From: Adhaeribacter swui
GTDB lineage: Bacteria > Bacteroidota > Bacteroidia > Cytophagales > Hymenobacteraceae
DNA: 64,000 nt
Direction of reading: 5' to 3'
Assembly: GCF_014217805.1 (NCBI RefSeq)
Contig: NZ_CP055156.1
Span: 3,044,585-3,108,584, forward strand
The notes below the pieces were generated by a model. It was not told where the DNA came from. It did no database searches and was given only the letters and a program-made list of their open reading frames with translations. Every line of letters begins with the position of its first letter. Within the stretch, counting starts at the first letter, position 1. Below, piece after piece: positions 44,862-59,176 of this stretch. The translations under genes and the position numbers were made by a program.

Positions 44862-45029
44862 TTAAGACGGGGTATTTTCCTTTACCTTAGTTTCTTCCTC
44901 AAATAAAATACGGACAGAAGGTGTATAATCGTCGTCGTACTGTCCGGACCGTACTGCCCAGATAAAAGAACCCAAAAACAATACCGCCACCGTTAAGCTA
45001 ATCCCGATTAAAAGAAATATAATAGTCAT
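44862..45029 (-). CDS. ccoS: Cbb3-type cytochrome oxidase assembly protein CcoS
   Basis: A 55-residue protein, too short for most ORF callers. One N-terminal membrane helix (FLLIGISLTVAVLFLGSFIW) is followed by AVRSGQYDDDYTPSVRILFE, the hallmark of CcoS. It is needed for cofactor insertion into cbb3 oxidase, an oxygen-scavenging terminal oxidase. The copper ATPase gene ccoI lies upstream on the same strand but is 530 bp away, with repeats and a terminator between. Confidence 0.92.
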   Translation of the reverse strand: MTIIFLLIGISLTVAVLFLGSFIWAVRSGQYDDDYTPSVRILFEEETKVKENTPS

Positions 45030-45063
45030 GATTGAAAGAGATAAAAATTTAAAATTTTTAAAA

Positions 45064-45083
45064 AATCAGCCTGCGGGCTGATT
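45064..45083 (-). terminator. Hairpin between ccoI and ccoS
   Basis: AATCAGCC (45064-45071)-TGCG-GGCTGATT (45076-45083), with a T-run (TTTTT plus AT-rich) next on the minus strand. It lies 34 bp upstream of ccoS and could end the ccoI message or attenuate ccoS. Confidence 0.65.
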
Positions 45084-45187
45084 CCAGTAAACCCAAAAGC
45101 TACTTCGTATTATTCATTTAAGAAATATGGTATGCCGTTTTTCTTCCTGTATGCTTCCAACAGCAAGCCGTCAGACTTGGAACATAG

Positions 45188-45211
45188 CTGGTTGGTGAAG
45201 ACACCAACCAG
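45188..45211. repeat. CTGGTTGGTG/CACCAACCAG hairpin repeat, second copy
   Basis: Identical in all 24 bases to the hairpin at 32536-32559, with flanking resemblance (CAACCAGGGC on the right). It lies in the 45030-45558 gap between ccoS and ccoI, which is repeat-filled and has no gene. Confidence 0.75.
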
Positions 45212-45296
45212 GGCGATAATAGAACTAAACTAATTCCCACACAAGCTATGCAACAAACAACAGTAGCCAAGTGCAGTAAACTAACCTCATGTATGC

Positions 45297-45510
45297 TATG
45301 CAACAGAAAGCGTTAGCCAGGTGCAAGCATTGACGCTAAACTGTCCGAGCGTTCAGCGAGTTTTTAGCGTCTTGACTTTTTTGGTTCTTTTTGTGTCAAG
45401 ACAAAAAGAACAAGACCTGAGCAATGAAACAACTTCACTAAACAACCAAAGCTAAAACAGAAGCTATGCGAACGAGAATTTGCAAGTCACGGAAGTAAAT
45501 CCGCGCCATA
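45297..45510 (+). repeat. About 210-bp hairpin-rich repeat E
   Basis: It contains GACGCTAAACTGTCCGAGCG, TTTTTAGCGTCTTGAC, then TTGGTTCTTTTTGTGTCAAG and ACAAAAAGAAC. GACGCTAAA/TTTAGCGTC and CTTGAC/GTCAAG form overlapping hairpins. An inverted copy lies at 54466-54693. The pair brackets the ccoI-to-hybrid-kinase region. Confidence 0.75.
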
Positions 45511-45558
45511 GTAGAAGCCATAGTACAAAAAACAAAACAGCTAGTTACATCAAAAAAA

Positions 45559-47994
45559 TTATTCAGAACCCCGGTTCAACCCCATCCGCCACGCCACTAA
45601 CCTTACACCCAACACCGAACACAGAATCACACTCAACGAACTGATTGGCATAAGAATAGCCGACGCTACCGGCGAAAACTGACCCATGACGGCCAGCGAC
45701 AAGCCAATAATATTGTACCCGAACGACACCCCAAAAGAACCCAGAATAACGTAAAGGCTGTAACGCGAAAATTTTAAAAATTTAGCCAGTTGCGTAAAAC
45801 TACCGGCATCCAGAATGGCATCACAACCCGGCGAAAAGTTGTTGACGGAATTGGTTACCGATATACCGGCATCGCTCATTTTTAAAGCACCCGCATCGTT
45901 GAGGCCGTCGCCCACCATAATAACGCGGTGGCCTTGTTGTTTTAAACCTGCTACGTACGCCAGTTTATCTGCCGGCGATTGATTAAACCGGAGTTCGGCG
46001 GCTTTGCCAAAATACTGGTGCAGGTTTTCTTTTTCTGAGGCATTATCGCCGGATAATACCGCTAATTTTTTGCCTTGCTGTTGCAGTTCGGTGAGTAAAG
46101 GTTTCAGACCCTCGCGGTAATGGTTTTGGAAAGTAAAATAGCCGTATTGCTTTTGGCCTAACTGCACGTACACCCGGGTAGCCAACGTTTCGATGGTATG
46201 GGCGCTGGCAATGCCCGTAAACTCCGCCGAGCCAATGCGGATTAGCTCGCCAGCCACCAATCCTTGCACGCCTTTCCCGGATAATTCCTGAAATTGCGTA
46301 ACCGCTTGTACCGGAGCAATTATCGATTGATACAAGCTTTGGCTGAGCGGGTGGGTAGAGTGCTGCAACACCGATTTAATTTTACTTTCATCTTCGGCAC
46401 TCAACGCTGAACCCTGGTAGGTAATATCCGTCTGGGCGCTTTCGGTTAAGGTGCCGGTTTTGTCAAAAACAAGGGTGTCGGCTTTGGCTAAAGTTTCGGC
46501 TACGTCGCCGTTTTTTAAATAAAATTTATGTTTCCCGAATATTTTAAGCGTGTTGGATAAGGTAAACGGTGTACTCAACGACAAAGCACAAGGGCAGGCA
46601 ATTACCAGCACCGAAGTAAAAGCTTTTATGGCCATGTCGGTGTCGCGCGGAACCCAGTACACCAGCGAGCCCAGGGCAATGAGTAAGGTAACTGTAATAA
46701 AGTAACTGCCTACCTTATCGGCGTAGGTGCCCACCCCAAAATAACTTTTTTCTTTCTCGAAAACGGTATTGTTCCACAATTGCGTGAGGTAGCTTTGCGA
46801 TACATCTTTTACTACTTCCAGCTCAATGCTTTCGCCCATCTGGCGGCCTCCGGCGTATATAATTTCGCCGGCAACTTTAGGTACCGGCACCGATTCGCCG
46901 GAAACAAACGAATAATCTATAAAAGCTTCACCGCGCAGCAAAATTGCATCGGCCGGAATGAGTTCCTGGTTGCGGATGCGGATGCGCTGGGTGGGCACCA
47001 GTTCTTTCACAGCTATTACCCGTTCCTGGCCTTTTTCCAGCACGGTAACCGAAATAGGAAAATACGCTTTGTAATCGCGGTCGAAGGTTAACGCATAGTA
47101 AGTGGTTTGCTGCACGTATTTGCCAATCAGCATGAAAAACACCAAACCGGTAAACGAATCGAGGTAGCCGGGACCGGATCCGGTTAAAATATCGAACAAA
47201 CTCAAGCCAAACAACGACAGTAGACCCAGACTAATGGGCGTATCCAGGTTAATGTGCCGTTGTTTTAACGATTGCCACGCCGAAGTAAAAAAGCCGCGGG
47301 CGCTGTACAAAAATACCGGCAAAGCCAGCGCAATGCTCAGGTAACCGAAAAAAGAGCCAAATTCTTGTTTAATCTCGTCGGTAAAGGCAAAATACTCCGG
47401 GAAACTCAGCAGCATGGTATTGCCGAAGCAAAAACCCGCCAGACCTAATTTTAAATTTATACCAAAGCTCCGCTTCGATTTCTCCTTCGTTAAATTCTCC
47501 AGATTAAGCGTAGGGCCGTAGCCGATTTTATGGAGCAGGGTAACCACAGCGCTTAGCTTGGTTTTTGACGGATGGTACGAAATGGTTACTTCTTTCCTCG
47601 GAAAGTTTACCCGTGACTCCAATATACCCTGGTCGAGTTTAAACAAATTTTCGAGCAGCCAGATGCAGGAACTGCAGTGCATATTAGGTATCCGGAATAA
47701 AACTTTATCCCGTGTTTCGCTCTGGAACTGGAGCAATTGATTTTTAAATTCCGGCTGATCGAGGTACGTAAACTGACCCGCTTGCACCTCTTCGGCTTTT
47801 TGGGTTAGGCCCGGTTTCTCAGTAGCATCGAGGTTATAATAGGTACATAAGTTGTTGGCATACAACAATTCGTACACCGATTTGCAACCAGTACAGCAAA
47901 AAACTTTTTCGTCGGCATAAATGGGCGTCCGGGTACAATCGTCGCCGCAGTGGTAACACTGTTCTTTTACCAGGGGATGTGCGGTTTCCAGCAT
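45559..47994 (-). CDS. ccoI: Copper-translocating P1B-ATPase CcoI (FixI) for cbb3 oxidase
   Basis: 811-residue inner-membrane pump that supplies copper for cbb3 oxidase. N-terminal cysteine cluster (QCYHCGDDC, VFCCTGCKSVYELL, 12-46), HMA domain with MHCSSCIWLLENL, transmembrane metal motif VIACPCALSLSTPF, phosphorylation site DKTGTLTES and hinge GDGLNDAGALKMSDAG. The Cys-rich ~80-residue N-terminus is the FixI/CcoI type, not CopA. With ccoS nearby this is a strong assignment. The structural ccoNOP genes are outside the window. Confidence 0.92.
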   Translation of the reverse strand: MLETAHPLVKEQCYHCGDDCTRTPIYADEKVFCCTGCKSVYELLYANNLCTYYNLDATEKPGLTQKAEEVQAGQFTYLDQPEFKNQLLQFQSETRDKVLFRIPNMHCSSCIWLLENLFKLDQGILESRVNFPRKEVTISYHPSKTKLSAVVTLLHKIGYGPTLNLENLTKEKSKRSFGINLKLGLAGFCFGNTMLLSFPEYFAFTDEIKQEFGSFFGYLSIALALPVFLYSARGFFTSAWQSLKQRHINLDTPISLGLLSLFGLSLFDILTGSGPGYLDSFTGLVFFMLIGKYVQQTTYYALTFDRDYKAYFPISVTVLEKGQERVIAVKELVPTQRIRIRNQELIPADAILLRGEAFIDYSFVSGESVPVPKVAGEIIYAGGRQMGESIELEVVKDVSQSYLTQLWNNTVFEKEKSYFGVGTYADKVGSYFITVTLLIALGSLVYWVPRDTDMAIKAFTSVLVIACPCALSLSTPFTLSNTLKIFGKHKFYLKNGDVAETLAKADTLVFDKTGTLTESAQTDITYQGSALSAEDESKIKSVLQHSTHPLSQSLYQSIIAPVQAVTQFQELSGKGVQGLVAGELIRIGSAEFTGIASAHTIETLATRVYVQLGQKQYGYFTFQNHYREGLKPLLTELQQQGKKLAVLSGDNASEKENLHQYFGKAAELRFNQSPADKLAYVAGLKQQGHRVIMVGDGLNDAGALKMSDAGISVTNSVNNFSPGCDAILDAGSFTQLAKFLKFSRYSLYVILGSFGVSFGYNIIGLSLAVMGQFSPVASAILMPISSLSVILCSVLGVRLVAWRMGLNRGSE

Positions 47995-48066
47995 GGTAGG
48001 TTCTTCTGTTAGTCTTTTACAAAATTATCTGCTGGCAGGAGCGTTACAGATGATAGAAGTCATGGG

Positions 48067-48089
48067 CCGCATTGATTTATCTCATGCGG
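48067..48089. promoter_or_regulatory. Candidate Crp/Fnr-type site between ccoI and haemoglobin genes
   Basis: TTGA-TTTATC-TCAT (48072-48085) lies inside a palindrome CCGCAT...ATGCGG (48067-48089). It matches 11 of 14 positions of the site before hemA (read as ATGATTTTTGTCAT). It is about 79 bp before ccoI and 140 bp before the divergent truncated-haemoglobin gene. Confidence 0.45.
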
Positions 48090-48224
48090 ATTAAAAAGCC
48101 AGGACTACATATTTGTGCCGGTCAATAAATCTACTAAGTCGGATTTAACCCGCAGGCAAGCTAAAAACTAAAAAAATGGCCGGGTTGCTGACCAATCTAA
48201 CCAAACCTTATTAGTACTACTGTT

Positions 48225-48596
48225 ATGAAAACTTTAAAAAACGATATAGTTACCACCCAAGATATTAACGAACTGGTAGAAGCCTTTTATCAGAAAATAA
48301 AAGCTCAGCCTTATTTGTGCGCTTTGTTCGATCAGCTAAGTCCTAGAGATTGGACCCAACACCTTTTTCAGATGAAAAACTTCTGGAATTCGGTGTTGCT
48401 CAAATCTGCTTCTTTTACCGGGCACCCGCTTATTTTGCACGCCTTTTTACCCGCCGAGCAAGCGCAGGTAAAAGAATGGATTTACCTGTTTCACGAAACC
48501 GTAGAAGAACATTTTACCGGACCTACCGCCAATGTAGCGCAATCCTTGGCCGATAAAATCCGGCGGATTTTTACCTATACCGCGCCCGAATTGTAG
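48225..48596 (+). CDS. Group III truncated haemoglobin
   Basis: 123-residue haem protein with the 2-on-2 globin fold. LVEAFYQKIKAQPYLCALFD (helix A-B region), WTQHLFQMKNFWNSVLL, then PLILHAFLPA with the proximal His in the group III form, and a C-terminal HFTGPTANVAQSLADKI. It binds oxygen or nitric oxide; in Campylobacter and others group III forms act in NO or oxygen responses. It is divergent from ccoI with the candidate Fnr-type site between. A paralogue lies 1 kb downstream. Confidence 0.87.
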   Translation: MKTLKNDIVTTQDINELVEAFYQKIKAQPYLCALFDQLSPRDWTQHLFQMKNFWNSVLLKSASFTGHPLILHAFLPAEQAQVKEWIYLFHETVEEHFTGPTANVAQSLADKIRRIFTYTAPEL

Positions 48597-48683
48597 AATA
48601 GGCTTAAATTTCAGAGATAATGGAAGCGCAGCTTTCGGTTTAGTTATATAGCAATAAAAAAAGCTCGAACCAAATGTTTGACT

Positions 48684-48731
48684 TTCAGGAGGAAGCTATT
48701 TGGCTACGTACCTGAATAGTTTCCTCCTGAA
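48684..48731. repeat. 17-bp hairpin between two haem-protein genes
   Basis: TTCAGGAGGAAGCTATT (48684-48700) pairs with AATAGTTTCCTCCTGAA (48715-48731) with one wobble and a 14-base loop. No T-run follows, so it is not a standard terminator. The arm sequence contains an AGGAGGA Shine-Dalgarno-like core. Confidence 0.6.
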
Positions 48732-48829
48732 TAACCTCTGTGAAAATGTTAGGGATAAAAAAAGGTTTTTGCAGTGTTTGCAAAGGAATGTAAGCAGATC
48801 AATTTTTAAAAAAATAAATTTTTAAAGCC

Positions 48830-49324
48830 ATGAATCGCACTTTACGGAATGATGTGGATCTTCGGTTTAACCAGTTAAGTTTGTTTGCCCTTTTACTGTG
48901 GGCCGGCATGGTAGCGGGTATTTCGTTTCTGGAAGCGCCGCTAAAGTTTACCGCGCCGCAAGTAACTCTGGCGATTGGTTTAGGTATTGGCCGTTTAGTG
49001 TTTAGCTGGCTGAATAAGGTGGAACTGGTTTTGGGAGCCTTAGTGGTATTTGGGTTGTTTTTTAATCGCCCACCATTCCGGATTTGGTTGCCGGTACTAC
49101 TGTTGTTGGGTGTTTTAATGCTGCAAACCACCTGGCTTTTACCCGCTCTGGATGCGCGGGCGTTGCAGATAATGGCCGGTAGAATACCGCAACCAAGTTA
49201 CTTTCACCTGGTGTACGTAACCCTCGAAATTTTTAAATTAGGACTGCTCCTCGGCGCAGCTTCGGCGGTTTACCATTACCAATTTGTACCTGCACCCGCC
49301 CGAAGACAAGCCGTAATGAACTAG
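48830..49324 (+). CDS. Four-helix membrane protein (DUF4149-like)
   Basis: 164-residue integral membrane protein with four hydrophobic spans (LSLFALLLWAGMVAGISFLE, VELVLGALVVFGLFF, IWLPVLLLLGVLMLQTTWLL, YVTLEIFKLGLLLGAASAVY). The EAPLKFTAP and WLNKVELVLG stretches are conserved in a family annotated as hypothetical or DUF4149 and often placed near respiratory genes. No cofactor motif is clear apart from scattered histidines. It lies between two truncated haemoglobin genes on the same strand. Confidence 0.65.
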   Translation: MNRTLRNDVDLRFNQLSLFALLLWAGMVAGISFLEAPLKFTAPQVTLAIGLGIGRLVFSWLNKVELVLGALVVFGLFFNRPPFRIWLPVLLLLGVLMLQTTWLLPALDARALQIMAGRIPQPSYFHLVYVTLEIFKLGLLLGAASAVYHYQFVPAPARRQAVMN

Positions 49325-49569
49325 GGTTTTTTGTAATTAGAAATTAGGCATTAATTTAACTTGGCAACTTCATGAAAATTTACCCATAAAATTAGTTTTG
49401 GAGACTGCTGAAAATGTGAATTTTTAAAAAATCCTGTTATAGAAGCATTTATAGCTGGATAAGTTTGTTAATCAATCAAGTAAGTCGAGAATTTAACTTT
49501 TATACAAAGGAAATAACAGGAACGGGAGTAAGGTCGTAATACCAAACCGTTTCGCAAATTTTAAAAATA

Positions 49570-49986
49570 ATGCAAAAAGCTTTAGTTGATATTACTACCG
49601 AGGACGATATTAAAACCCTCGTCGATCGCTTTTACGAAAAGGTAAACCAGGATGCTATGCTGTCGCCTATCTTTAACGATTTTGCAAAAGTTGACTGGGA
49701 AAAACATTTACCCAAAATGTACCAGTTTTGGAGTTCTATTTTGTTAGGCACCTTTACCTACGCCGGACAACCTTTTCCGAAGCACGCTTTTTTGCCGGTA
49801 AACCCCACGCATTTTGCCCAGTGGCTGCACTTGTTTTACCAAACCGTAAACGAGAACTTCAGTGGCCCTATCGCCGACGAGGCCAAAATACGCGCCGCCA
49901 ACATCGCCCGTATTTTCTCCAACAAAATCGAAATCATCCAAGGCCGTCAACCCGCCATCCCCACTGTTAAAAGCCAGGAAGATTAA
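49570..49986 (+). CDS. Second group III truncated haemoglobin
   Basis: 138-residue paralogue of the globin at 48225 with the same skeleton: LVDRFYEKVNQDAMLSPIFN, DWEKHLPKMYQFWSSILLG, PFPKHAFLPVNPTHFAQWLH and NFSGPIADEAKIRAANIARI. The proximal His is in KHAFLPV. It has its own 245-bp upstream gap, which holds AT-rich palindromes and no clear Fnr-type site. Two class III globins side by side suggest division of tasks (for example oxygen versus NO), which is inference. Confidence 0.87.
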   Translation: MQKALVDITTEDDIKTLVDRFYEKVNQDAMLSPIFNDFAKVDWEKHLPKMYQFWSSILLGTFTYAGQPFPKHAFLPVNPTHFAQWLHLFYQTVNENFSGPIADEAKIRAANIARIFSNKIEIIQGRQPAIPTVKSQED

Positions 49987-50082
49987 TTTATAATCACTGT
50001 ATTTCTTAGTCTGCTAAACCTAATTTTATATATAATAAGCCTTAAAAATTTTAAGATAAAAATTAATTATAGGGCGGAAGTT

Positions 50083-50156
50083 ACTTCCGTGCCTTTTTTT
50101 GCTTATAATTTTACTCGAGGAAAGTTGAAGTTTAAGTCTCGGAAGTAACTTCCGCG
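50083..50156. repeat. GGAAGTTACTTCCG palindromic repeat
   Basis: CGGAAGTTACTTCCGTGCC (about 50083-50101) is mirrored by CTCGGAAGTAACTTCCGCGCC ending near 50156 (quoted here in two parts: CTCGGAAGTAAC and TTCCGCGCC). Related single arms occur in repeat E (near 45483) and repeat F (near 54472). Confidence 0.55.
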
Positions 50157-50200
50157 CCATAGCTCCTGTGCCATAATTCAAGATTGATAGCAAAATGAAT

Positions 50201-50550
50201 AGCAGTAGCTAAACGCGATTGATACCAGTTTGGCTATTGAGCACCTGCTAGGGTTCTGGTTTTGCACAGCAAAATTCCGCAGCGGAGCGAGGAAAGGAAG
50301 CTTAGACCGTCCGAAAGAGCTAAACGAGGCCTGCCGGCCATGAGGCAAAACTTGAAATCTCAAACTAGATAGCACCAAAGCCTGGAGACTTGAAAAGGCT
50401 CCAAGTAAGTACAGTAAATTACTAAATTTTTAAAAATTTACTTTTTAGCAGCTTGCTTCAGCCGATGCAGGTTCCGGCTGAAAGCCGGAGTAAAGTCACA
50501 GACTTTACCATATTGGTAGGCACAAGTTAAAAAACTTGCGCCAGAGAATG
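50201..50550 (+). repeat. Composite hairpin repeat, copy B (modules 1 and 2)
   Basis: Same order as copy A. Module 1: long-range stem GTTTGGCT (50228-50235)/AGCTAAAC (50318-50325, one G-T), hairpin TTTTGC-ACA-GCAAAA (50260-50274), GC-GGA-GC (50282-50288). Module 2: TCCGGCT/AGCCGGA (50473-50489), GTAAAGTC/GACTTTAC (50490-50508), CAAGTT/AACTTG (50523-50538). It fills the gap between the second globin and hemA. Confidence 0.8.
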
Positions 50551-50614
50551 AGCATAGAGATAGAAACAGGCTCTACAGAATGGCTGTGAATTGACAACGT
50601 TTTTTATTAAAAAA

Positions 50615-51877
50615 CTACGCTTCTTGCTTCTCCAAACCAAACAACGCCGTCAAACCCGAAAGTAAAGCATCGGATTCTCCCCGCTGACAGGCTGCTTTTA
50701 ATTCCAGAACCGGCAGTTTTACAATCTTATTCAGAATATTCTGAGTAATAGCCTCCACAAGTTGCTGTTCATCGGAATTCAGTTTTTTTACATACCGCGC
50801 GACTTCCTGCTGCCGGATTTGCTCTAGTTGGTTTTTAAACTGCTGAATAGCGGGAGAAATAGCGGTTTCGCGCCGCCAGTTTTTAAATTCCTGCTGGGCT
50901 TCGGCCACCATAGCTTGTACTTGGGGGATAGCTGCCAGTCGTTTGGTTAAAGCCTCGGTAGCCCGGTTATTAATCGTATCAATATTATAAACTTCTACGC
51001 CCGGTATAGTAGCTATCGTATCATCTACGCTACGTGGCATTGATAAATCGACGAAATACTTGTGCCGGATGGGACCCAGGCTGCCCACCTCTTTTTGGCT
51101 GATGTAAAAACAATCGCCCGGCACCGAGGAGATAACTACATCGGCAGTTGATATGGCCGCAGGTAGGTCTTCCCAGGCAACTGCCTCAAACTGGGTGCGC
51201 TCGGCTAGTTCTATGGCCTTTTGTGGCGTGCGGTTGGCGATCACCAGGTTATTGATTTTAGATTTTTTAAAATTGAGGCACACATTGGCTCCCATTTCGC
51301 CGAGCCCAATCAGAAGTACCCGCGGATTTTTGATAAACTGGGTAATTTCTTCTACCAATTCCACGGTAGCGTACGCTACCGAAGCTGCTCCATCGCGAAA
51401 AGTTGTTTCGTTGGTTACTCGTTTATTCGTGAAGAAAATGGTGTGCAGCAAGCGGTGCAAAAATGGACCAGCCATTTCGGCGTCGGCGGACCATTGATAC
51501 GCATTTTTTACCTGGTTTAAAATCTGGAAATCGCCGATTACCTGCGATTCTAAGCCTAAAGCTACGTGAAACAAGTGCTGTATGGCTTGGTCTGGTTCTG
51601 GTAACCGGGTAAAATAAGGCTCGATTTCTTTGGCGGCAATAAATCCTTTCTCGATGGCGAGCAGTTTAATAATATCCTGGGCTACCTCCTGATCGGCCGT
51701 ATAATACACCTCCGTGCGGTTGCAGGTAGAAAGCACCAAGGCTTCGGAAACCGGTGTGTATTCTTTTATTTTCTGCAGTAGATTTTTACAAGCCATCTCG
51801 TTTAAAGCCACCATCTCCCGGATGGCAATGGGTGCATTTTTGTAGGATAAAGAAATGGCTCGAAACTGGTTTGGCAT
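50615..51877 (-). CDS. hemA: Glutamyl-tRNA reductase HemA
   Basis: First committed enzyme of the C5 haem pathway: NADPH-dependent reduction of Glu-tRNA to glutamate 1-semialdehyde. The ATG at 51877 (MPNQFRAISLSYKN) gives 420 residues; an upstream start would add 33 unlikely residues that include the operator. Catalytic Cys52 in LSTCNRTEVY, LLIGLGEMG in the NADPH domain, and the C-terminal dimerisation helix. The Crp/Fnr-type palindrome about 50 bp upstream suggests that haem supply is tied to oxygen or NO sensing. No other hem genes are adjacent. Confidence 0.93.
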   Translation of the reverse strand: MPNQFRAISLSYKNAPIAIREMVALNEMACKNLLQKIKEYTPVSEALVLSTCNRTEVYYTADQEVAQDIIKLLAIEKGFIAAKEIEPYFTRLPEPDQAIQHLFHVALGLESQVIGDFQILNQVKNAYQWSADAEMAGPFLHRLLHTIFFTNKRVTNETTFRDGAASVAYATVELVEEITQFIKNPRVLLIGLGEMGANVCLNFKKSKINNLVIANRTPQKAIELAERTQFEAVAWEDLPAAISTADVVISSVPGDCFYISQKEVGSLGPIRHKYFVDLSMPRSVDDTIATIPGVEVYNIDTINNRATEALTKRLAAIPQVQAMVAEAQQEFKNWRRETAISPAIQQFKNQLEQIRQQEVARYVKKLNSDEQQLVEAITQNILNKIVKLPVLELKAACQRGESDALLSGLTALFGLEKQEA

Positions 51878-51925
51878 AGCGGTAAGTTTACTATGCAAAA
51901 TTCCGGAATAGTTGCGGCTCTCAAT

Positions 51926-51939
51926 ATGACAAAAATCAT
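51926..51939. promoter_or_regulatory. Candidate Crp/Fnr-type operator of hemA
   Basis: ATGACAAAAATCAT, an ATGA-N6-TCAT palindrome centred about 55 bp before the hemA start. It differs at one base of 14 from the complement of the usp site. Recognition by the REC-Crp protein encoded next door is inference. Confidence 0.6.
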
Positions 51940-52134
51940 CCTTTCCGGAGATTGTTATCACCCAGATAGAAGCCACATTGCTGGTAGTGAAGACACCACC
52001 AAAAGCGCCTGAATAATTAATTCCGTCGTATTCTGAAATTTTAAAAATTTAAATTACGAAAATGCTTCACCGTTATGGTATCCAGTAGCTAAAGTCTAGT
52101 GTCTAAAGTCTAGCGTCTAGCATCTCGTAACTAC

Positions 52135-53196
52135 TTAATTACGCATGCGGGCCAGCTTATCGGAGTTTACAATGGTAATTTTGCCGCCGTTAATGTCAAT
52201 CAGTTTTTCGTCTTTAAAATCCGACAAGGTGCGGATCACGGTTTCTTTGGAGGCACCCACAATATTGGCCAGATCTTCGCGCGACATGGTTACCTGGTAG
52301 TTTTTGCCTTTGTCTTTTTGGTATTGTTTCTCGACCAGCAATAAGGCTTCGGCTACCCGCTTGCGCACGGAGTTATAGGCCAGCTTCAGTAAACGTTCTT
52401 CGCGGTCGGCCAGGTTATCCGATAAAATTTTTATGAATTTATTCGCTACATCGCGGTTGTGGTACAACAACGAAAAAAACTCTTCTTTGTGAATCAAACA
52501 AACCTCCGCATCTTCCAGGGCCTCTGCCGATTCGCGGTAGGTTTTATCTTCGAGTAAATCCAGGTAACCGATAAAATCGCCTTCTTTGTACAGGTTGGTG
52601 ATGTACTCGCGGCCTTCTTCGTTGGTTTTGTAGGTCTTTATTTTACCTTTATTTAAAAAATACAAAGCCTGCGGGTACTGGCCTTCAGTAAACAATTGCT
52701 GTTTTTTCTGGTAATGGGTAAGCTTGCGCTCGTTGGCGATTAAGTTATTGAGCTCCTGCAAACCTTTTGCTTCCTGAATAAAATCCTGCAAGCCTTCAGC
52801 GTTTTTCTGGAATTCGGCTTTTACAATGCTATTCTTTTTCAGGCGCATTTCCACGGCGTCCAGCAGCTCTAAATCGTCGAAAGGTTTGATTAAGTAATCA
52901 TCGGCGCCTAAATTCATGCCTTTCCGGAAATCTTCTTTCTCGGATTTGGCCGTTAAAAATATAAACGGAATGCCCGAGGTGGCCGGGTTTTTACTTAACA
53001 GGTGCAGTACGCCGTAGCCATCCAGTTGCGGCATCATGATATCGCAAATAATTAAATCGGGTTTTTCGGTTTGGGCCAGCACTACGCCGGCCTTGCCGTG
53101 CTCGGCTTGTACTACTTCATAATCGGCCAGCGCTAAAATTTCGGCTATGTTTTCCCGGATCTCCGGATTGTCTTCTATCAGTAAAATTTTCTTCAT
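52135..53196 (-). CDS. Fusion of receiver, cNMP-binding and Crp-type HTH domains (REC-Crp)
   Basis: 353-residue transcription factor. Receiver domain 1-120 with phospho-Asp52 (ICDIMMPQLDG) and Lys in DYLIKPF; linker helix; cyclic-nucleotide-binding-like beta barrel (FTEGQYPQALYFLNKGKIK, EGDFIGYLDLLED); C-terminal HTH_Crp (TMSREDLANIVGASKETVIR). The Fnr cysteine cluster is absent, so it does not sense oxygen by Fe-S. Its ATG overlaps the stop of the hybrid kinase gene by 4 bp (ATGA), so they are translationally coupled. It combines FixJ-like and FixK-like functions in one chain (inference). Confidence 0.88.
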   Translation of the reverse strand: MKKILLIEDNPEIRENIAEILALADYEVVQAEHGKAGVVLAQTEKPDLIICDIMMPQLDGYGVLHLLSKNPATSGIPFIFLTAKSEKEDFRKGMNLGADDYLIKPFDDLELLDAVEMRLKKNSIVKAEFQKNAEGLQDFIQEAKGLQELNNLIANERKLTHYQKKQQLFTEGQYPQALYFLNKGKIKTYKTNEEGREYITNLYKEGDFIGYLDLLEDKTYRESAEALEDAEVCLIHKEEFFSLLYHNRDVANKFIKILSDNLADREERLLKLAYNSVRKRVAEALLLVEKQYQKDKGKNYQVTMSREDLANIVGASKETVIRTLSDFKDEKLIDINGGKITIVNSDKLARMRN

Positions 53197-54425
53197 CGTG
53201 TTGTGTTTCTCCCAAATTGAACGGTAAATGTGGTGCCCACTTGCAAAATACTTTCGTAGGTCAAAGTGCCTTGCATGATGTCTACGTAGCGTTTTACGAT
53301 ATTCAACCCTAAACCGGTACCCTCGTAATTGGTAGCGTTCTGCGCCCGGAAAAACGGCGTAAATAAATGCGTTTGATCTGCTTCCGGAATACCAATGCCT
53401 TCGTCCTGCACCCGCAAAATAATAGTTTCCGGAGTTATAGTGGTAGTTAAATAAATGTTTTTGCCTTCGGCGGAATATTTGCTGGCGTTGGAGAGCAGGT
53501 TGAGCAATATGTTTTTGAGTAATTGCTTGTCCAGCGTTACCTGGTCGGGCTGGCCCTGGTGCTGAAAGTGGATTTGCTGGCCCACCTTCAGGTATCCTTG
53601 CATTTCTTCTACAATGCCGGCGGCAAAAGGCTCTAAAGCAAAACTGGTAGGTACGTTGTAAATCTTGCCTTCTTCGATGCGGCTCAGCGACAGGAAATCG
53701 TTTAAAATACCCGTTAAATTACTGACCGCTGATTTGATCCGGTTCACGTGTTTCTGGCGTTTCTCATCGTCTTCGGTAAGTTTGTATTTACCAATCAGCG
53801 AGGCCGATGATAACACGGTACTCAGTGGCGTGCGGAACTCGTGGGAGGCAATGGTAACGAACCGGGATTTGAGTTCGTTGAGTTCTTTTTCTTTTTGCAG
53901 CGCTTTTTTAATTTCCTGCTGGGCCTCAAATAAGCTTTTGTTGGTTTCTTCCAGTTTGATCACGGCCTCGGCCAGTTCCTGGGTGCGCACCATTACCCGT
54001 TGCTCTAGTTCGGTATTTAGCTTTTGAATTTCGGCCAAATTTTTAGCGTGCTCCAGGCTGTACCGTACGGAGCGTTCCAGGTCGAAAGGAGTGAAGGTGC
54101 CTTTTACCAGATAATCCGAAGCGCCAATGTGCATGGCTTTTTCGTCGGTTTCGCGGTTGCTCTGGCCAGTTAGTAAAATAAATGGAGCCAGACTCCCGCT
54201 TTGTATCGCCATGGCAATTAACTCTAATCCGTCGTGGGCTCCGAGGCGGTAGTCTACTAGATATACTTGGTGTTTTTGCTCTTGAATCAACGTTAACGCT
54301 TCAGTAAAAGAAGCGGTCCAGTCGAGGTGGTAGGGGTTGCCGGGAATATCGTTTATGATATCCTGGGTGATGATAAAGTCGTCTTCATCGTCGTCTACCA
54401 GTAATATTTTTATTTTTTCAGACAT
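53193..54425 (-). CDS. Hybrid REC-histidine kinase coupled to the REC-Crp gene
   Basis: 410-residue soluble protein: receiver 1-125 with phospho-Asp58 (YLVDYRLGAHDG), coiled coil about 130-185, HisKA with His195 in TIASHEFRTPLSTVL, and HATPase (QLLKNILLNLLSNASKYS, VQDEGIGIPEADQTHLF, EGTGLGLNIVKRYV). No membrane span or sensor domain is seen, so it works as an intermediate or is driven through its receiver. It is directly upstream of and coupled to the REC-Crp gene, and is its likely phosphodonor. Confidence 0.87.
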   Translation of the reverse strand: MSEKIKILLVDDDEDDFIITQDIINDIPGNPYHLDWTASFTEALTLIQEQKHQVYLVDYRLGAHDGLELIAMAIQSGSLAPFILLTGQSNRETDEKAMHIGASDYLVKGTFTPFDLERSVRYSLEHAKNLAEIQKLNTELEQRVMVRTQELAEAVIKLEETNKSLFEAQQEIKKALQKEKELNELKSRFVTIASHEFRTPLSTVLSSASLIGKYKLTEDDEKRQKHVNRIKSAVSNLTGILNDFLSLSRIEEGKIYNVPTSFALEPFAAGIVEEMQGYLKVGQQIHFQHQGQPDQVTLDKQLLKNILLNLLSNASKYSAEGKNIYLTTTITPETIILRVQDEGIGIPEADQTHLFTPFFRAQNATNYEGTGLGLNIVKRYVDIMQGTLTYESILQVGTTFTVQFGRNTTR

Positions 54426-54465
54426 CTGTTAAGGTAAAACTGAAAAATTACTATTCGCTTAATTT

Positions 54466-54693
54466 GCGTGGATTTACTTCCGTGCCTTTCGAATCAAGTT
54501 AACTTAAAAAGTTCTCGTTTGCATAGCTACGATTTTAGTTGTAATATCTAAGTGGAGTTGTTTCATTGCTGAAGTTCTGTTCTTTTTGTCTTGACACAAA
54601 AAGAACCAAAAAAGTCAAGACGCTAAAAACTCGCTGACCGCTCAAACAGTTTAGCGTCACTTTCTGCACCTGGAACGGCTACTTGTTGCATAG
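54466..54693 (-). repeat. Hairpin-rich repeat F, inverted copy of E
   Basis: On the minus strand it reads as the repeat at 45297-45510 (GACGCTAAACTGTTTGAGCG, TTAGCGTCTTGACTTTTTTG, GTGTCAAGACAAAAAGAAC). It keeps both outer parts (GCAAACGAGAA and CACGGAAGTAAATCC). It occupies the gap upstream of the hybrid kinase gene. Confidence 0.75.
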
Positions 54694-54747
54694 TATAATT
54701 TCAGAATTTAAAATTTTTAAAAATTTCTTTGTGTTAATTTATGCTGG

Positions 54748-54887
54748 CGCGAGCGTCTCGCTCGTGTCTACTATCTGCTAGGCCTCTGGCCGGGCAAACC
54801 AATCAACTTTTCCTTAAAAGCTAATCAGCAACAAATTCCAACCGGCCAGAGGCCGGACGATAATCATCACGAGCGTGGACGCTCGCG
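54748..54887. repeat. 140-bp nested palindrome
   Basis: The outer arms CGCGAGCGTCTCGCTCGTG (54748-54766) and CACGAGCGTGGACGCTCGCG (54868-54887) match except for one small difference; inner arms GGCCTCTGGCCGG (54781-54793) and CCGGCCAGAGGCC (54842-54854) match perfectly. The first 16 bases of the outer arm region also flank the IS4-type element at 61597-61612. It carries no gene. Confidence 0.7.
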
Positions 54888-54956
54888 AGAGTTCGAAACA
54901 GGTTAAGAATATAAAGTCCATCTTTGGAGGGGGGAGGATCAATCTCCCCCGAAAAT

Positions 54957-55103
54957 ATTATGGTCATTGGTACTTGGTAAATGGTAATTGGAAAAAGCTC
55001 CCCGCCTTGGATAAGGAGGGGTTGGGGGTGGTTGATTTTTTTAATGCACCATCTTCATTAACTTATAACCAAAAACCATCAACGAATAACCAACAACCAG
55101 CAA
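54957..55103. repeat. Mirrored simple repeats at the 3' side of the response regulator gene
   Basis: TTATGGTCATTGGTACTTGG and TAAATGGTAATTGG (54957-54990) are roughly mirrored by AACTTATAACCAAAAACCAT and AACCAACAACCAGCAAC (55061-55105). They are related to the other short-period arrays at gene ends in this window. Confidence 0.45.
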
Positions 55104-55556
55104 CTACTTAATCACCGGCAGCTCCACGATATCAAACCAGTATTGCGTCAGCTTTTTCATAGTATCTACCAGGGAGTTAAACGTGACAGGTTTGGTGATG
55201 AAAGAACTGACGCCTAAATCGTAAGTGTTCAGGATGTCTTCTTCGGCTTTCGAAGTGGTTAATACCACCACCGGGATGCAGCGCAAATGGGCATCTTCTT
55301 TTATTTCTTTTAAAGCTTCGCGACCGTCTTTTTTGGGCATGTTTAAGTCCAGTAAAATCAAGCCGGGCGTGGTATACTGGTCTTTGTCGGTGTATTTGCC
55401 GCGGTTATGCAGGTAGTCCATTAATTCTTCGCCATTTTCTACGAACTGCATGGTGTTCTTCAACCGGTTTTCTTCTAAGGCTTCTTTCAGCAACATCCGG
55501 TCTTCGGCATCATCGTCGGCAATTAAAATAACAATACTTTTTTTGCGGGCGCTCAT
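55104..55556 (-). CDS. Single-domain response regulator (CheY-like)
   Basis: 150-residue receiver domain with the acidic pair IADDDAEDRM, phospho-Asp in LLDLNMPKKDG (about residue 72), Thr in VVLTTSKAEEDI and Lys in FITKPVTF. There is no output domain. It starts 10 bp after the dual-PAS kinase stop, so the two form an operon. It may pass phosphate on to a separate output protein, such as the hybrid kinase or REC-Crp protein encoded 0.7-3 kb away. Confidence 0.88.
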   Translation of the reverse strand: MSARKKSIVILIADDDAEDRMLLKEALEENRLKNTMQFVENGEELMDYLHNRGKYTDKDQYTTPGLILLDLNMPKKDGREALKEIKEDAHLRCIPVVVLTTSKAEEDILNTYDLGVSSFITKPVTFNSLVDTMKKLTQYWFDIVELPVIK

Positions 55557-55566
55557 CGTCTAATTT

Positions 55567-57090
55567 TTATTCCTGAGGTTGTTTAGTGGCTAGAGTAATA
55601 ATAAAACGGGTGCCAACCCCCACCTGGCTGCGGGCGGTAATGTCGCCGCCGTGCCGGATGGCAATTTTACGGCAAATGGCTAAACCAATGCCGGAACCTT
55701 CGTATTTCTGGCCTTCCAGGCGCTGAAAAATATTAAAAATCCGGTCGAGGTACTTTTCGTCGAACCCAATGCCGTTGTCTTCAATCGAAATTTCTACTTG
55801 TTCGTCGCCGGGCGTAGCGGTTAAATGGGCCTGCCGTTGCAACGAGCGCCAATATATTTTTACCACCGGCTGCGTGTTCTCTTTCCGGAATTTAATGGCG
55901 TTGCTGATTAAATTTTGAAACAATTGCCGCATTTGCGTGGGTTCAGCTTCAATTTCGGGTAACGCGGTTCTTTGAATGTCGGTGTTTGTTTGCTCAATCG
56001 TTATTTCTAAATCCGACAGTACTTCGGTTACAATTTTATCCAGACTTACCCGCACAAAAGGTTTGCTTTTGGTGGTAACCCGCGAAAAAGCCAGCAAATC
56101 GTTAATTAAGTTTTGCATGCGCGAGGCGGCATTGAGCATGCGTTCCAGGTAATCTTTGCCCTGGTCGCTGAGGTTGGCGTGCTCGCGAGTAAGCAAGCGG
56201 TCGCCGAAGGCCTGAATTTTACGCAAAGGTTCCTGCAAGTCGTGAGACGAAACGTAGGCAAAATCCTGGAGTTCCAGGTTGCTGCGCTCCAGCTCGGCGG
56301 CGTACCGGCGCAGTTTTTCTTCGTTGAGTTTTTGCTGGGTAATGTCGTGAATAAAGCCGGTGTATACTTTGCGGTCGGCTAGTTCTACTTCGCTGATGCT
56401 TAAGTAAAAAGGAAAGGTGGTGCCGTCTTTGCGTAAACCGGTTACTTCGCGACCAATCCCAATGATTTTTTTGCGGCCGGTTGTGTGGTAATTGTGCATG
56501 TAGCCGTCGTGGCGGGAATGGTCGGGTTCCGGCATGAGCACGTTAATGCTTTTCCCCAGCAACTCCTGGGCTTCGTAGCCAAACAAGCGGGCCGCCGAAG
56601 GGTTTACCATTTCGATCATGCCCCGGATATCAATGGTGATAATGCCATCTACCGCCGCCTGAATTATAGAGGTGATTTTGTTTTCGCTTTCGCGCAGGGC
56701 AGCTTCGGCTTTTTTTAAATTACTGATGTCGTGAATAATGCCCGTAAAAATTTGCTTATCCTGGAGGTTTACTTCACTGATGCTGAGTAAAAACGGAAAC
56801 ACGGTGCCGTCTTTGCGGCGGCCCAGTACTTCGCGGCCTTTTCCTATTATTTGAGCTATTCCGGTGTGGTGGTAGTTTTCAAGGTAACTATCGTGCTGGC
56901 TGCGGTCGGGTTCCGGCATCAGCATTTTTACATTTTGCCCGATTATTTCGGATGGTTCGTACCCAAAAATACGCGCTGCCGCCGGGTTTACAGTTTCTAT
57001 GATGCCGCGGCGGTCGATGGTAATAATGCCATCGATGGCCGTGTTGATAATAGCTTGCAACCGCGTTTTATCATCTATGTTTTGCTCCAA
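55567..57090 (-). CDS. Soluble histidine kinase with two FixL-type haem-PAS domains
   Basis: 507-residue cytosolic kinase: PAS1 about 10-125, PAS2 about 135-252, HisKA with His283 in YVSSHDLQEPLRKIQAF, HATPase (LFQNLISNAIKFRKEN, SIEDNGIGFDEKYLDRIF, GSGIGLAICRKIAIRHGG). Each PAS keeps the FixL signature LMPEPD-x2-x-HD followed by IIG-x-GREV: His66/Arg86 and His194/Arg214, the same 20-residue spacing as haem ligand His200 and distal Arg220 of Bradyrhizobium FixL. This predicts two oxygen-binding haems; Arg206 and His214 of FixL are not kept. An oxygen-sensing role is strong inference. Confidence 0.87.
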   Translation of the reverse strand: MEQNIDDKTRLQAIINTAIDGIITIDRRGIIETVNPAAARIFGYEPSEIIGQNVKMLMPEPDRSQHDSYLENYHHTGIAQIIGKGREVLGRRKDGTVFPFLLSISEVNLQDKQIFTGIIHDISNLKKAEAALRESENKITSIIQAAVDGIITIDIRGMIEMVNPSAARLFGYEAQELLGKSINVLMPEPDHSRHDGYMHNYHTTGRKKIIGIGREVTGLRKDGTTFPFYLSISEVELADRKVYTGFIHDITQQKLNEEKLRRYAAELERSNLELQDFAYVSSHDLQEPLRKIQAFGDRLLTREHANLSDQGKDYLERMLNAASRMQNLINDLLAFSRVTTKSKPFVRVSLDKIVTEVLSDLEITIEQTNTDIQRTALPEIEAEPTQMRQLFQNLISNAIKFRKENTQPVVKIYWRSLQRQAHLTATPGDEQVEISIEDNGIGFDEKYLDRIFNIFQRLEGQKYEGSGIGLAICRKIAIRHGGDITARSQVGVGTRFIITLATKQPQE

Positions 57091-57294
57091 AGTTCAGGTT
57101 TTTAGCAAGAGTTCTTATGTACAAAGATAAACACCTTGCTTTTACGTTTTCAATAAAAAGGTGGTAGTAAAAAGCCTTTATTGGCTTTAAAATTTAAAAA
57201 TTAGCCACCTGTTAGTGATCGTTACTTAATTAATATGGGTTAAAAGTACCAGCACTTCTCCGAAAGGATAACTTAAGAGATTACTCCGGCCATG

Positions 57295-58146
57295 CTAGGC
57301 GGGGTTAGTTACGGGTATCCGATACGGTTTTGCCGGCAGGCTTAGTAGCGGCAAGGAAGTTTGATGCAATAATTGTTTGGTAAGACTTTTATGAAATAAT
57401 TTTTCCAGAAAAGGACGTTCCTGCATAGCCACGGCTAAAACATCGGCCTGCGTTTCCTGTATAAATTCCTGAATACCTGCTTTAATGTTGTTTTGTTTTT
57501 TCTGTGCCACGCAAAAAGCATTTGTCGGGAATTGTTTTTGAATTTCTTTAATTATTTGCGCATCATCTACCAGATCTAACTGGCGCTCTGATTTAATGTT
57601 TACGATAGATACTTGCGCTTGAAAAGTTGCGGCTACCCCAAATAGTTGTTGCAGGTAATTTTTTTCGGTGTTTTCGAAGCTGGAGGCATAGGCAATGTTT
57701 TTAATGCCCTTATAAGTTACTCCCATGGGGATTGCTAAAACCGGGCAGTGCGCTTCCTGCATAAACCCGAAGGTATTGGTGCCAATTAAATTGGTGACAA
57801 AATCGCCGGCATCTTTAGTGCCCATTATAACTAAATCTACCTGGTTAACTTTCACCAGCTCGTTCAGGTCCGTGAACAGGTAACCGTGCTGGCAAATGGT
57901 AGTAATGTTGATCCCTGGGTATTGTTTTTTTAAATTTTCGGAAATTTGGTTTAACTCAGCGGTATAATCTTCCGGCAGGTTCCAGTCTACGGGCATGGTG
58001 AGGTTGCCATCCAGGGGCGTTATGGGCCGGGCAATGACGTGCGCCAAAATTATTTTTCCGGCGAGTTCCTGCGCTAAACCAGCAGCGTATTGTAAAGCGT
58101 GTTGGGCGTTTTCAGAAAAGTCGGTTGGTACCAGAATTGTTTTCAT
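57295..58146 (-). CDS. Tandem universal stress protein (UspA type)
   Basis: 283-residue soluble protein with two Usp domains. Domain 1 starts MKTILVPTDFSENAQHAL and has the ATP-binding-like motif GTKDAGDFVTNLIGTNT (about 122-138). Domain 2 starts near 147 (KNIAYASSFENTEK) and lacks a clear G-x2-G-x9-G motif. A perfect Crp/Fnr-type palindrome lies about 125 bp upstream. Usp proteins of anaerobic or microaerobic regulons in other bacteria are Fnr-controlled, so this fits the local oxygen theme. Confidence 0.87.
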   Translation of the reverse strand: MKTILVPTDFSENAQHALQYAAGLAQELAGKIILAHVIARPITPLDGNLTMPVDWNLPEDYTAELNQISENLKKQYPGINITTICQHGYLFTDLNELVKVNQVDLVIMGTKDAGDFVTNLIGTNTFGFMQEAHCPVLAIPMGVTYKGIKNIAYASSFENTEKNYLQQLFGVAATFQAQVSIVNIKSERQLDLVDDAQIIKEIQKQFPTNAFCVAQKKQNNIKAGIQEFIQETQADVLAVAMQERPFLEKLFHKSLTKQLLHQTSLPLLSLPAKPYRIPVTNPA

Positions 58147-58220
58147 CGCTTTATCAGTTAAGTGAATTTTTAAAATTTTAAAAAAACTGGAAAGCTGTAA
58201 CTGCTTTTACCGGTTAGTTA

Positions 58221-58228
58221 CAAAACTA
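58221..58228 (-). promoter_or_regulatory. Candidate -7 box of the usp promoter
   Basis: On the minus strand TAGTTTTG fits TAnnTTTG. If it is used, the operator at 58271-58288 would be centred about 60 bp upstream of the transcription start, a typical activator position for Crp-type proteins. Pattern match only. Confidence 0.4.
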
Positions 58229-58270
58229 AATTCGGCGGTATGTTTTATATATGATACGAATCTTTTGGGA

Positions 58271-58288
58271 ACATGATTTTTATCATGT
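58271..58288. promoter_or_regulatory. Perfect Crp/Fnr-type palindrome upstream of usp
   Basis: ACATGAT-TTTT-ATCATGT, perfect over 7+7 bases. Its core ATGATAAAAATCAT (minus strand) differs at one base from the hemA site. It is the strongest of the three sites. Confidence 0.7.
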
Positions 58289-58329
58289 TTTTGTTTCGGA
58301 TAGTTTTATGTAGTTGGCGGGTTGTTGTT

Positions 58330-58523
58330 TGGAGCCTTTTCAGGGCTCCAGGCTCAGGTGCTATCTAGTTTGAGATTTCAAGTTTTGCCTCATGGCCGGC
58401 GGGCCTCATTTGGCTCTCTCGCACTTGCTAGCCTTCCTTTCCTCGCTCCGCTGCGGAATTTTGCTGCGCAAAACCAGAACCCTAGCAGGTGCTCAATAGC
58501 CAAACTGGTGTCTTTGCGCTTAG
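58330..58523 (-). repeat. Hairpin repeat module 1, copy C (inverted)
   Basis: Reverse complement of module 1: hairpin TTTTGC/GCAAAA (58459-58473), long-range stem AGCCAAAC (58498-58505) with ATTTGGCT (58408-58415), and the GCGGAGC form. It faces copy D across 58524-58767, which holds no gene. Confidence 0.8.
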
Positions 58524-58767
58524 CATTGGAAATTCTACCATTTTACTAACTTATTTTTCTAGAACATCGTGTCTTTTCGAGTCTGACGAGAAATCCAAAG
58601 CATACTGCCTTGATTTATCGGGCCTATAAAATGGTATGTATTAGGTGTTTCGACAGGCTCAACAGGACTTTTTAATTATTGAGCAATAGGTTGGTCCAAT
58701 CGTAAACATTAAAAACTTCAGTCATAAATCTTAACAGATTATTAATCTAAACTATTGTGCGCCCTAA

Positions 58768-58975: not shown

Positions 58976-59176
58976 GAATAACGTTTAACAAGTTTATGCT
59001 TATAAATAAAAGAAGATAATATCTCATCAAGAGAAATAGCTCTTACAGGAAATGGTAAGGCAAATTGAAAAATCAATAACTAGATAAATTTTATTCTGTT
59101 GCCTGTAACCTGCTAGAAAGTAGCTCCGTATAAACATAGTGTAAACGAACTAAGGTAGAAATGCTTTAGTAAAAAG

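Follow-up and report, generated by a model that had tools for sequence, protein, structure and literature searches.

FNR and FnrL, regulators that carry an iron-sulfur (Fe-S) cluster, occupy TGA-N6-TCA-like dyads in a class II position and serve anaerobic or microaerobic targets; in the sensor kinase FixL, a PAS domain holds haem through a His ligand, with an Arg on the distal side. The FixL-FixJ-FixK circuit of rhizobia has such a haem-PAS kinase at the top, a Crp/Fnr-family activator at the bottom and cbb3 oxidase genes among its targets (available parts of PMC7888657 and PMC9104804). In Rhizobium leguminosarum the haem kinase hFixL reaches FixK via FxkR, not FixJ (available part of PMC7888657). 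The NmpRSTU system of Myxococcus xanthus, according to the accessible portion of PMC11841059, consists of an oxygen-sensing kinase, a REC-only (receiver) protein, a REC-HisKA-CA kinase and then a response regulator: NmpU, predicted to be active with oxygen, phosphorylates the NmpS receiver and silences NmpS; low oxygen frees NmpS, and NmpR is then phosphorylated and regulates cbb3, universal stress protein (usp), hemN and hemerythrin genes. Here we describe a gene island of the Bacteroidota species Adhaeribacter swui, contained in a window of 64,000 nucleotides (C3:3044585-3108584 of the 6.2-Mb source genome, labelled G000), in which a fusion of a receiver with a Crp/Fnr-family regulator (REC-CNB-HTH_Crp, hereafter REC-Crp) probably governs cbb3, haem and globin genes.

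As far as the open literature shows, the control of cbb3 oxidase induction has been little described in Bacteroidota, a major phylum in soil, the sea and hosts. Among the matches listed in the open PMC literature, which leaves subscription papers mostly outside, no receiver-Crp/Fnr fusion regulator was described in Bacteroidota. Some Bacteroidota CRP/FNR proteins have been assigned to MalR (PMC8510549, available part). In Flavobacterium psychrophilum, cbb3 and haem synthesis are up at low oxygen, which fits the target set found here; the words Crp and Fnr are absent from the main text of that paper in its available form (PMC9723704).

From low to high coordinates the island comprises ccoS and ccoI (minus strand), a globin, a small protein and a second globin (plus strand), and hemA, REC-Crp, a receiver-kinase (RRHK), a lone receiver, a FixL-like kinase and usp (all minus strand). 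REC-Crp (52135-53196, minus; PF00072, PF00027 and PF13545) overlaps by 4 bp the REC-HisKA-HATPase kinase RRHK (53193-54425, minus). The single-domain receiver, of Rcp1/CheY-like type (55104-55556, minus), neighbours the FixL-like kinase (55567-57090, minus), a PAS-PAS-HisKA-HATPase protein with two haem-type PAS domains, assigned by its domains and by a phmmer match to FixL chain 8js5. A preliminary description of this DNA had named cbb3 assembly genes, two truncated haemoglobins, hemA and usp here, all of which are present by their Pfam and NCBIfam domains, and the kinase with two haem-type PAS domains beside a CheY-like regulator and the hybrid kinase coupled to a REC-Crp fusion were borne out as well.

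That description had also likened the island to a FixL-FixJ-FixK circuit. The likeness is supported in that position, shared promoter sites and co-occurrence tie cbb3, haem and globin genes to two-component proteins, a haem-type PAS kinase among them, and to a Crp/Fnr output, but there is neither a FixJ-like gene nor a free FixK. The lone receiver matches PF00072 only and has no DNA-binding domain, and so is not FixJ (a receiver with a LuxR-type HTH); a free FixK is lacking because the receiver and the Crp/Fnr DNA-binding part are one protein, with no transcriptional step from receiver to FixK. The island further departs from the rhizobial circuit in its two haem-type PAS domains, its extra REC-kinase and lone receiver, and its tandem operators, and from the R. 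leguminosarum pathway in that FxkR and FixK are separate proteins there (PMC7888657, available part). Among described relays, the nearest that we found is not FixLJ but NmpUTS of Myxococcus. By its domains and active-site residues RRHK is a REC-HisKA-CA kinase like that of NmpRSTU, with a corresponding predicted place in the phosphate path. In contrast, the Myxococcus system has a protoglobin-type sensor domain (Anaeromyxobacter homolog), a REC-only protein with two receivers and an NtrC-like output (accessible portion of PMC11841059), where the island has haem-type PAS domains, one receiver and, as its output, REC-Crp. REC-Crp shares its superfamily with FNR and FnrL, but has a receiver instead of the CxxC motif, which precedes the Crp part in none of 102 REC-Crp proteins; its activity should depend on phosphorylation.

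The predicted targets are marked by a distinctive promoter architecture. A search for TGAN6TCA found, before ccoI, ccoN and ccoG, a 34-bp tandem unit, TGAN6TCA-N10-TGAN6TCA, with dyad centres 22 bp apart, and a Bacteroidota -7 box, TAnnTTTG, follows the proximal dyad after 23 bp. The ccoI gene (45559-47994, minus; a FixI-type copper P-ATPase with ATPase-cat_bd, HMA, E1-E2_ATPase and Hydrolase domains) and the gene for truncated haemoglobin 1 (trHb1; 48225-48596, plus; PF01152 E 3.6e-4, barely above cut-off) have in common the dyad pair TGATAGAAGTCA-N10-TGATTTATCTCA (48051-48084), one of three perfect pairs in the genome, which the trHb1 promoter uses in the opposite direction. The ccoI -7 box, TAATTTTG (48020-48027, minus), lies 23 bp from the proximal dyad with no mismatch to the whole 65-bp promoter model, and with the -7-like box CATATTTG (48108-48115, plus) trHb1 matches the model at one mismatch. 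Before hemA (glutamyl-tRNA reductase; 50615-51877, minus, likely ATG at 51877; GlutR_N, Shikimate_DH and GlutR_dimer) there is a tandem pair with one mismatch (51927-51960) and a -7-like box, GAATTTTG (51896-51903, minus), making two mismatches in all. Before usp (57295-58146, minus; weak Usp matches, best E 1.1e-4) a pair with one mismatch (58252-58285) is followed by the box TAGTTTTG (58221-58228, minus), again matching the model. The fused ccoNO (NCBIfam 'bifunctional cbb3 subunit I/II'), ccoP and ccoG lie at C3:3117858-3124007, 9-15 kb beyond the window end (locus L016), and are followed there by a ccoH-like gene, a sulfite-exporter-like gene and a second usp (names partly by eye).

In F. 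psychrophilum TAnnTTTG occupies -12 to -5 (PMC9723704, available part), and with the 23-bp phasing this predicts dyad centres at -41.5 and -63.5, a placement like that of a class II activator. Read in gene orientation at ccoI, ccoN, ccoG, hemA and usp, the distal dyad is roughly TGANAACAATCA and the proximal one TGAYNNNNRTCA; given this difference, their affinities may differ.

Genome-wide, the tandem pattern occurs without mismatch at three places (ccoI, ccoN, ccoG) and with one mismatch at five more, hemA and usp among them. The reversed pattern, used as a control, had no perfect match and 13 places at up to one mismatch, so that the tandem pattern alone is unspecific at that level; the remaining one-mismatch places (C3:2355980, 3041740 and 5225966) were set aside, lacking a -7 box at up to two mismatches in all. 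Tandem and -7 box together, at up to two mismatches, match six times in the genome: ccoI (0), trHb1, usp, ccoN and ccoG (1 each) and hemA (2), all within 30 kb. Uniform base counting predicts ~0.26 such matches, and 4.3 at up to three mismatches; at three mismatches there are 7 more, and the reversed pattern yields 6 at up to three.

Three ATGA-N6-TCAT palindromes had been noted earlier before members of the group. The window does hold three, all inside the island (0.53 expected; 3 reached in 0/100 shuffles), but they are single members of the tandem pairs, and the one at hemA falls inside the longest open reading frame (ORF), although upstream of the likely ATG. As a regulon marker the single 14-bp palindrome ATGAYNNNNRTCAT was rejected: it is not enriched genome-wide, with 15 places vs 26 for the backwards pattern. 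One lone ATGATTTTAATCAT without a tandem partner stands 145 bp upstream of a gene that by eye is acyl-CoA desaturase-like, an oxygen-using enzyme (C3:5720067, L015). Further single-palindrome places, with names also given by eye, are at genes for a short-chain dehydrogenase (L014), isopropylmalate dehydrogenase (L002) and an EboA-like protein (L004).

The spacing and phase of the operator recur in relatives. Eighty loci (1.40 Mb), retrieved solely on the similarity of their REC-Crp proteins, contain 759 dyads, with 48 pairs at 22 bp, 7 at 23 bp and 0-3 at each remaining distance within 80 bp, against 0.41 expected for each; the control ACTN6AGT gave 211 dyads, with no pair at 22 bp and one at 23 bp. 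A smaller set, partly chosen for sites and including the pairs that gave rise to the idea, had 13 dyad pairs at 22 bp. Among 129 distinct tandem sites in the fetched loci, 120 have the start of an ORF resembling a coding sequence no more than 300 bp downstream in one direction or the other; five lie inside an ORF without such a start. TAnnTTTG starts 23 bp past the proximal dyad in 31 of 175 site-gene orientations and in at most 3 at every other offset. Where a gene lies on one side only (n=65), a box at offset 22-24 was found on the gene side in 16/65 and on the gene-less side in 2/65.

We scored promoters of orthologs by their best match to the 18 specified bases of the model (window, L016, L088-L102 and L148-L157). 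Scores of at least 15 were obtained for ccoI in 4/4 (18, 18, 17, 16), trHb1 in 3/3 (17, 17, 16), ccoG in 5/5 (17 in four, 15 in one), ccoN in 3/4 (17, 17, 17, 11), hemA in 20/22 (16 in sixteen, 15 in four, 14, 11), usp1 in 14/21 and the FixL-like kinase in 10/25; usp2 reached 17 in 1/8, the rest being at most 13. Single-base shuffles (20 per region) averaged 10.9-11.9 and reached 16 at least once. Genes internal to operons were at background, all at most 12/18: REC-Crp (24), RRHK (25), the lone receiver (24), ccoP (5) and ccoS (4). When the ccoN promoter is aligned across six genomes, its dyad half-sites and TTTG prove invariant, although the flanks have diverged. Tandem sites stand right before REC-Crp or the FixL-like kinase in L213, L216 and L102/L151, which suggests autoregulation in those relatives; in the window no promoter-model match was seen before either gene. 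Because L102 and L151 cover a single stretch, one genome is counted twice in the promoter scoring, kinase census, tree and residue alignments; the loci within the pairs L161/L162 and L193/L194 are also near-identical.

Further candidate targets in relatives, identified by domain tests on 10 chosen proteins, are a NorB-type nitric oxide (NO) reductase, a class II ribonucleotide reductase, a DUF2249-ScdA_N-hemerythrin protein, a NorC-like cytochrome, a NapC/NirT cytochrome, a flavodoxin_5 protein (HemG-like) and an Rrf2 regulator. The proportions in this target census are biased because loci were partly fetched for holding sites; 57/129 sites had no neighbour matching any of 19 reference proteins, and chance probably accounts for some of them.

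Across genomes, sites and regulator travel together. Counting as REC-Crp any match with E < 1e-60, we found 345 perfect tandem sites in 118 genomes (source included) vs 15 for the reversed pattern. The 81 genomes with REC-Crp hold 328 of these sites, 68/81 having at least two, whereas the 37 without hold 17, with 3/37 having at least two (Fisher 1.4e-15). In a draw of 345 genomes from the phylum the association is seen again within the class: 50 genomes with REC-Crp carry 170 sites (at least two in 33/50), and 38 without carry 22 (at least two in 4/38; Fisher 1e-7). The 257 genomes of other classes have 136 sites and no REC-Crp at this threshold. Within the family of the source genome, Hymenobacteraceae according to tree labels and named relatives (Adhaeribacter, Pontibacter, Rufibacter), REC-Crp is present in 54/54 genomes with ccoN, and the 18 ccoN-less genomes divide into 8 with a match and 10 without; in other families it is present in 17/32 genomes with ccoN and 2/14 without. 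G006, of the same genus, lacks REC-Crp, sites and ccoN alike. The combination of REC-Crp, tandem sites and a haem-type PAS kinase is thus found again in many related genomes.

REC-Crp belongs to the CRP/FNR superfamily (PF00027 E 4.5e-20, PF13545 E 5.6e-17). It is not of the Fe-S type, as the missing CxxC indicates, and not FixK, scoring 82.4 bits against a cut-off of 300 with NCBIfam NF050806 and having a receiver fused. In 11 aligned proteins D9, D52, T82, K104, E318 and R322 are invariant, as is a Tyr, Y211, at what we take to be the place of the cAMP-binding Glu72 of CRP. An AlphaFold model (mean predicted local distance difference test score 65, predicted template modelling score 0.34) was not used. 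HTH_Crp_2 matches three proteins in the source genome: REC-Crp, a distant 215-aa Crp without N-terminal CxxC in a sulfur gene cluster (L254), and a third (L255) that we rejected as a Crp, being GntR-like by eye; this census would miss any Crp with an HTH that the model does not recognise. A type-2 REC-Crp occurs in G001 (51% identical, L253) and G005 (49%, L251), where it overlaps by 4 bp a 395-aa FixL-like kinase with one haem-type PAS; G005 has neither perfect tandem sites nor ccoN. The type-2 recognition helix reads NETISR, as in FNR, so this type may use another site.

The FixL-like kinase matches FixL chain 8js5 with E 1.9e-38, and the His and Arg of FixL align in PAS-B. In 27 aligned rows of orthologs, H194 and R214 of PAS-B are present in 27/27 and H66 and R86 of PAS-A in 26/27 each, the exceptions being one gap and one Q; both domains thus appear to have His and Arg at the haem-ligand and distal places. 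The protein is below the NCBIfam FixL equivalog cut-off (NF041777, 325 bits vs 850), and its kinase core also matches bacteriophytochrome kinases. In RRHK, D58, T86, K108 and H195 are invariant (28 rows), and in the lone receiver so is the phospho-acceptor D70 (31 rows); a single E replaces D at one acidic receiver residue. All three alignments include the window's own protein, possibly twice.

Across 105 loci we examined 102 REC-Crp ORFs for a kinase directly upstream, which proved PAS-type in 55, receiver-type in 31 and other in 4, with none found in 12. A strict motif undercounted haem-type PAS domains (15/55) and was replaced by alignment to PAS-B, by which the haem-ligand His of FixL is present in 53/55 of these PAS kinases and the distal Arg in 28. 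A FixL-like kinase and a lone receiver accompany the receiver-type kinase in 30/31 loci; the exception is on a 5.8-kb contig whose start is close to the kinase. A haem-type PAS therefore adjoins REC-Crp either on its own or on a neighbouring kinase.

We consider it likely that the island is a self-contained unit for low oxygen, possibly also for NO, running from a haem-PAS kinase relay through REC-Crp and the tandem sites to six promoters. This reading draws on the genes and their domains, the tandem and -7 architecture, its restriction in this genome to six promoters at up to two mismatches, its association with REC-Crp across genomes and the repeated presence of haem-type PAS kinases nearby, all read from sequence; from these we infer that REC-Crp binds the sites and activates, that the PAS domains hold haem, that oxygen or NO is the signal, and how phosphate flows and with what sign. 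In the proposed mechanism the soluble FixL-like kinase, with haem in both PAS domains, would pass or withhold phosphate, which would reach REC-Crp through the receiver domain of RRHK and the single-domain receiver, a topology expected to be as in NmpRSTU with haem PAS and REC-Crp in place. Phosphorylated REC-Crp would bind as two adjacent dimers to the dyads at -41.5 and -63.5 and activate the Bacteroidota housekeeping RNA polymerase at ccoI, trHb1, hemA, usp, ccoN and ccoG, so that cbb3 oxidase, copper and assembly factors, haem and globins would be supplied when oxygen is scarce. Where a PAS kinase lies beside REC-Crp, the relay would collapse to a two-step FixL-like system.

Several findings weigh against this reading. 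There is no perfect tandem site in 4/81 genomes with REC-Crp (G005, G019, G058, G101), nor in 12/50 such genomes within the class of the phylum draw, and the Fisher values overstate independence, because the genomes are related and the two samples overlap. Outside its own family 15 ccoN genomes lack REC-Crp, and within it 8 genomes have a match but no ccoN; seven of these matches share 42-49% identity, and the eighth comes from a genome of 78% completeness. Identity does not explain these ccoN-less matches, since REC-Crp proteins 44-48% identical occur in ccoN genomes, and the threshold mixes types, since the genus holds a REC-Crp paralog of 49-51% identity. No PAS- or REC-type kinase was found just upstream of 16/102 REC-Crp genes, the distal-Arg place is Leu, Met, Phe, Asn or Ile in 25/55 PAS kinases, and the kinases could serve other targets. 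Finally, some genomes without REC-Crp carry many sites (G264 6, G382 7, G417 9), and the motif is therefore not exclusive to the fusion.

We searched 13 genomes, such genomes among them, for the Crp HTH and read the Crp proteins of eight that have sites and no REC-Crp (G264, G134, G384, G225, G382, G417, G112, G115; G116 was left out). In 7/8 there is a stand-alone Crp of 235-244 aa with N-terminal CxxC; the protein read from G417 (L244) lacks CxxC and is not that genome's likeliest candidate. These CxxC proteins lie near ccoI and tandem sites in L241 and L245 and beside a tandem site in L242, and for this reason probably bind the motif in genomes without REC-Crp. The L241 protein matches NCBIfam Fnr (2e-25) and FnrL (1e-22), both below cut-off. 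N-terminal CxxC was present in 27/28 stand-alone relatives, a set chosen by similarity to the Crp part of REC-Crp, vs 0/102 fused proteins.

A possible objection is thus that the tandem sites are bound by another regulator, such as a stand-alone FNR-like protein, with REC-Crp a bystander; the loci just described lend themselves to this, and G063 is among the genomes that have both REC-Crp and stand-alone kinds. We think it very unlikely, since in the source genome HTH_Crp_2 otherwise matches only the distant L254 protein and the GntR-like L255, and G006 lacks REC-Crp together with the sites (though ccoN as well). It is also conceivable, if doubtful, that REC-Crp and its sites form a low-oxygen or redox regulon to which RRHK alone, through its own receiver or another partner, provides the input, the FixL-like kinase and lone receiver serving some other output. 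Bacteriophytochrome-type kinases, which the FixL-like kinase core matches, are often paired with lone receivers, and 678 bp separate the FixL-like/receiver pair from the RRHK/REC-Crp pair. This separation of outputs sits poorly with the retention of the former pair in 30/31 receiver-type loci, with the haem-type PAS on kinases that adjoin REC-Crp in other lineages (overlapping by 4 bp in the type-2 pair), and with scores of at least 15/18 upstream of the FixL-like kinase in 10/25 orthologs.

The signal itself might be NO or another redox cue instead of oxygen, with targets mainly for NO defence, as the tandem sites before a NorB-type NO reductase, a NorC-like cytochrome and the DUF2249-ScdA_N-hemerythrin gene in relatives and the globin among the window targets would allow; the core targets ccoN, ccoI, ccoG and hemA are, however, microaerobic genes, and class II ribonucleotide reductase may be a target as well; we regard this alternative as unlikely. 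To the idea that unrelated genes merely cluster here beside chance palindromes, with which the single 14-bp palindrome would agree in not being enriched genome-wide, we give almost no credence: the spacing, the -7 phasing, the ortholog promoters and the phylogenetic association all contradict it.

The remaining genes and features of the region are as follows. The cbb3 maturation gene ccoS (FixS; 44862-45029, minus; PF03597 E 4e-21) opens the island, and truncated haemoglobin 2 (49570-49986, plus; PF01152 E 6.2e-10) is separated from trHb1 by the gene for a 164-aa protein (48830-49324, plus), membrane-like by eye, that has no match in Pfam or NCBIfam. An ortholog of this small protein occupies the same site between globins in L088 and L095, and in L158 and L170 the protein is kept close to cbb3 genes. 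Between the genes of the island there are long intergenic repeats, both direct and inverted (50198-50437, 58321-58512, 58766-59007, 45317-45481 and 54509-54673; 62-184 nt, 81-98% alike), which are repetitive extragenic palindromic (REP)-like or decayed mobile repeats. At 41690-42949 an RsbQ-like alpha/beta hydrolase lies beside a small SpoIIAA/STAS-like protein (by eye).

The preferred reading, a haem-PAS relay acting through REC-Crp, bears on how the regulon arose. The preliminary description had called the island a separately built equivalent of the rhizobial circuit; this holds for the wiring, but the PAS domains are homologous to those of FixL (E 1.9e-38) and the Crp part is placed beside stand-alone CxxC FNR-like proteins. 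In our tree the fused proteins come close to a single group next to these Bacteroidota proteins, with the root uncertain; two label changes are needed, forks are open, bootstrap is unsettled and outgroup branches are long, so the tree is not proof, and a single origin of the fusion is perhaps compatible with it. These patterns suggest a regulon whose operator was retained through a change of input module. We read REC-Crp as a putative FNR-like regulator in which the receiver stands in place of the oxygen-labile Fe-S N-terminus, wired to haem-PAS kinases, and we infer that the change ran from Fe-S to receiver. Evenly balanced, in our judgement, is the fuller proposal that this sensor swap, perhaps made once, turned an Fe-S FNR-like regulator into a phosphorylation-driven one that kept the tandem -41.5/-63.5 operator and the microaerobic targets, with phosphorylation driving paired-dimer binding and a sharp oxygen threshold.

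For Bacteroidota the analysis yields a candidate regulator, a predicted list of targets, and an operator defined precisely by its fixed spacing and its phase relative to the promoter. It also yields natural species pairs in which an Fe-S-type or a receiver input would act on the same kind of operator. With such pairs and a defined operator and target set, the change of sensor within a conserved regulon becomes a testable question.

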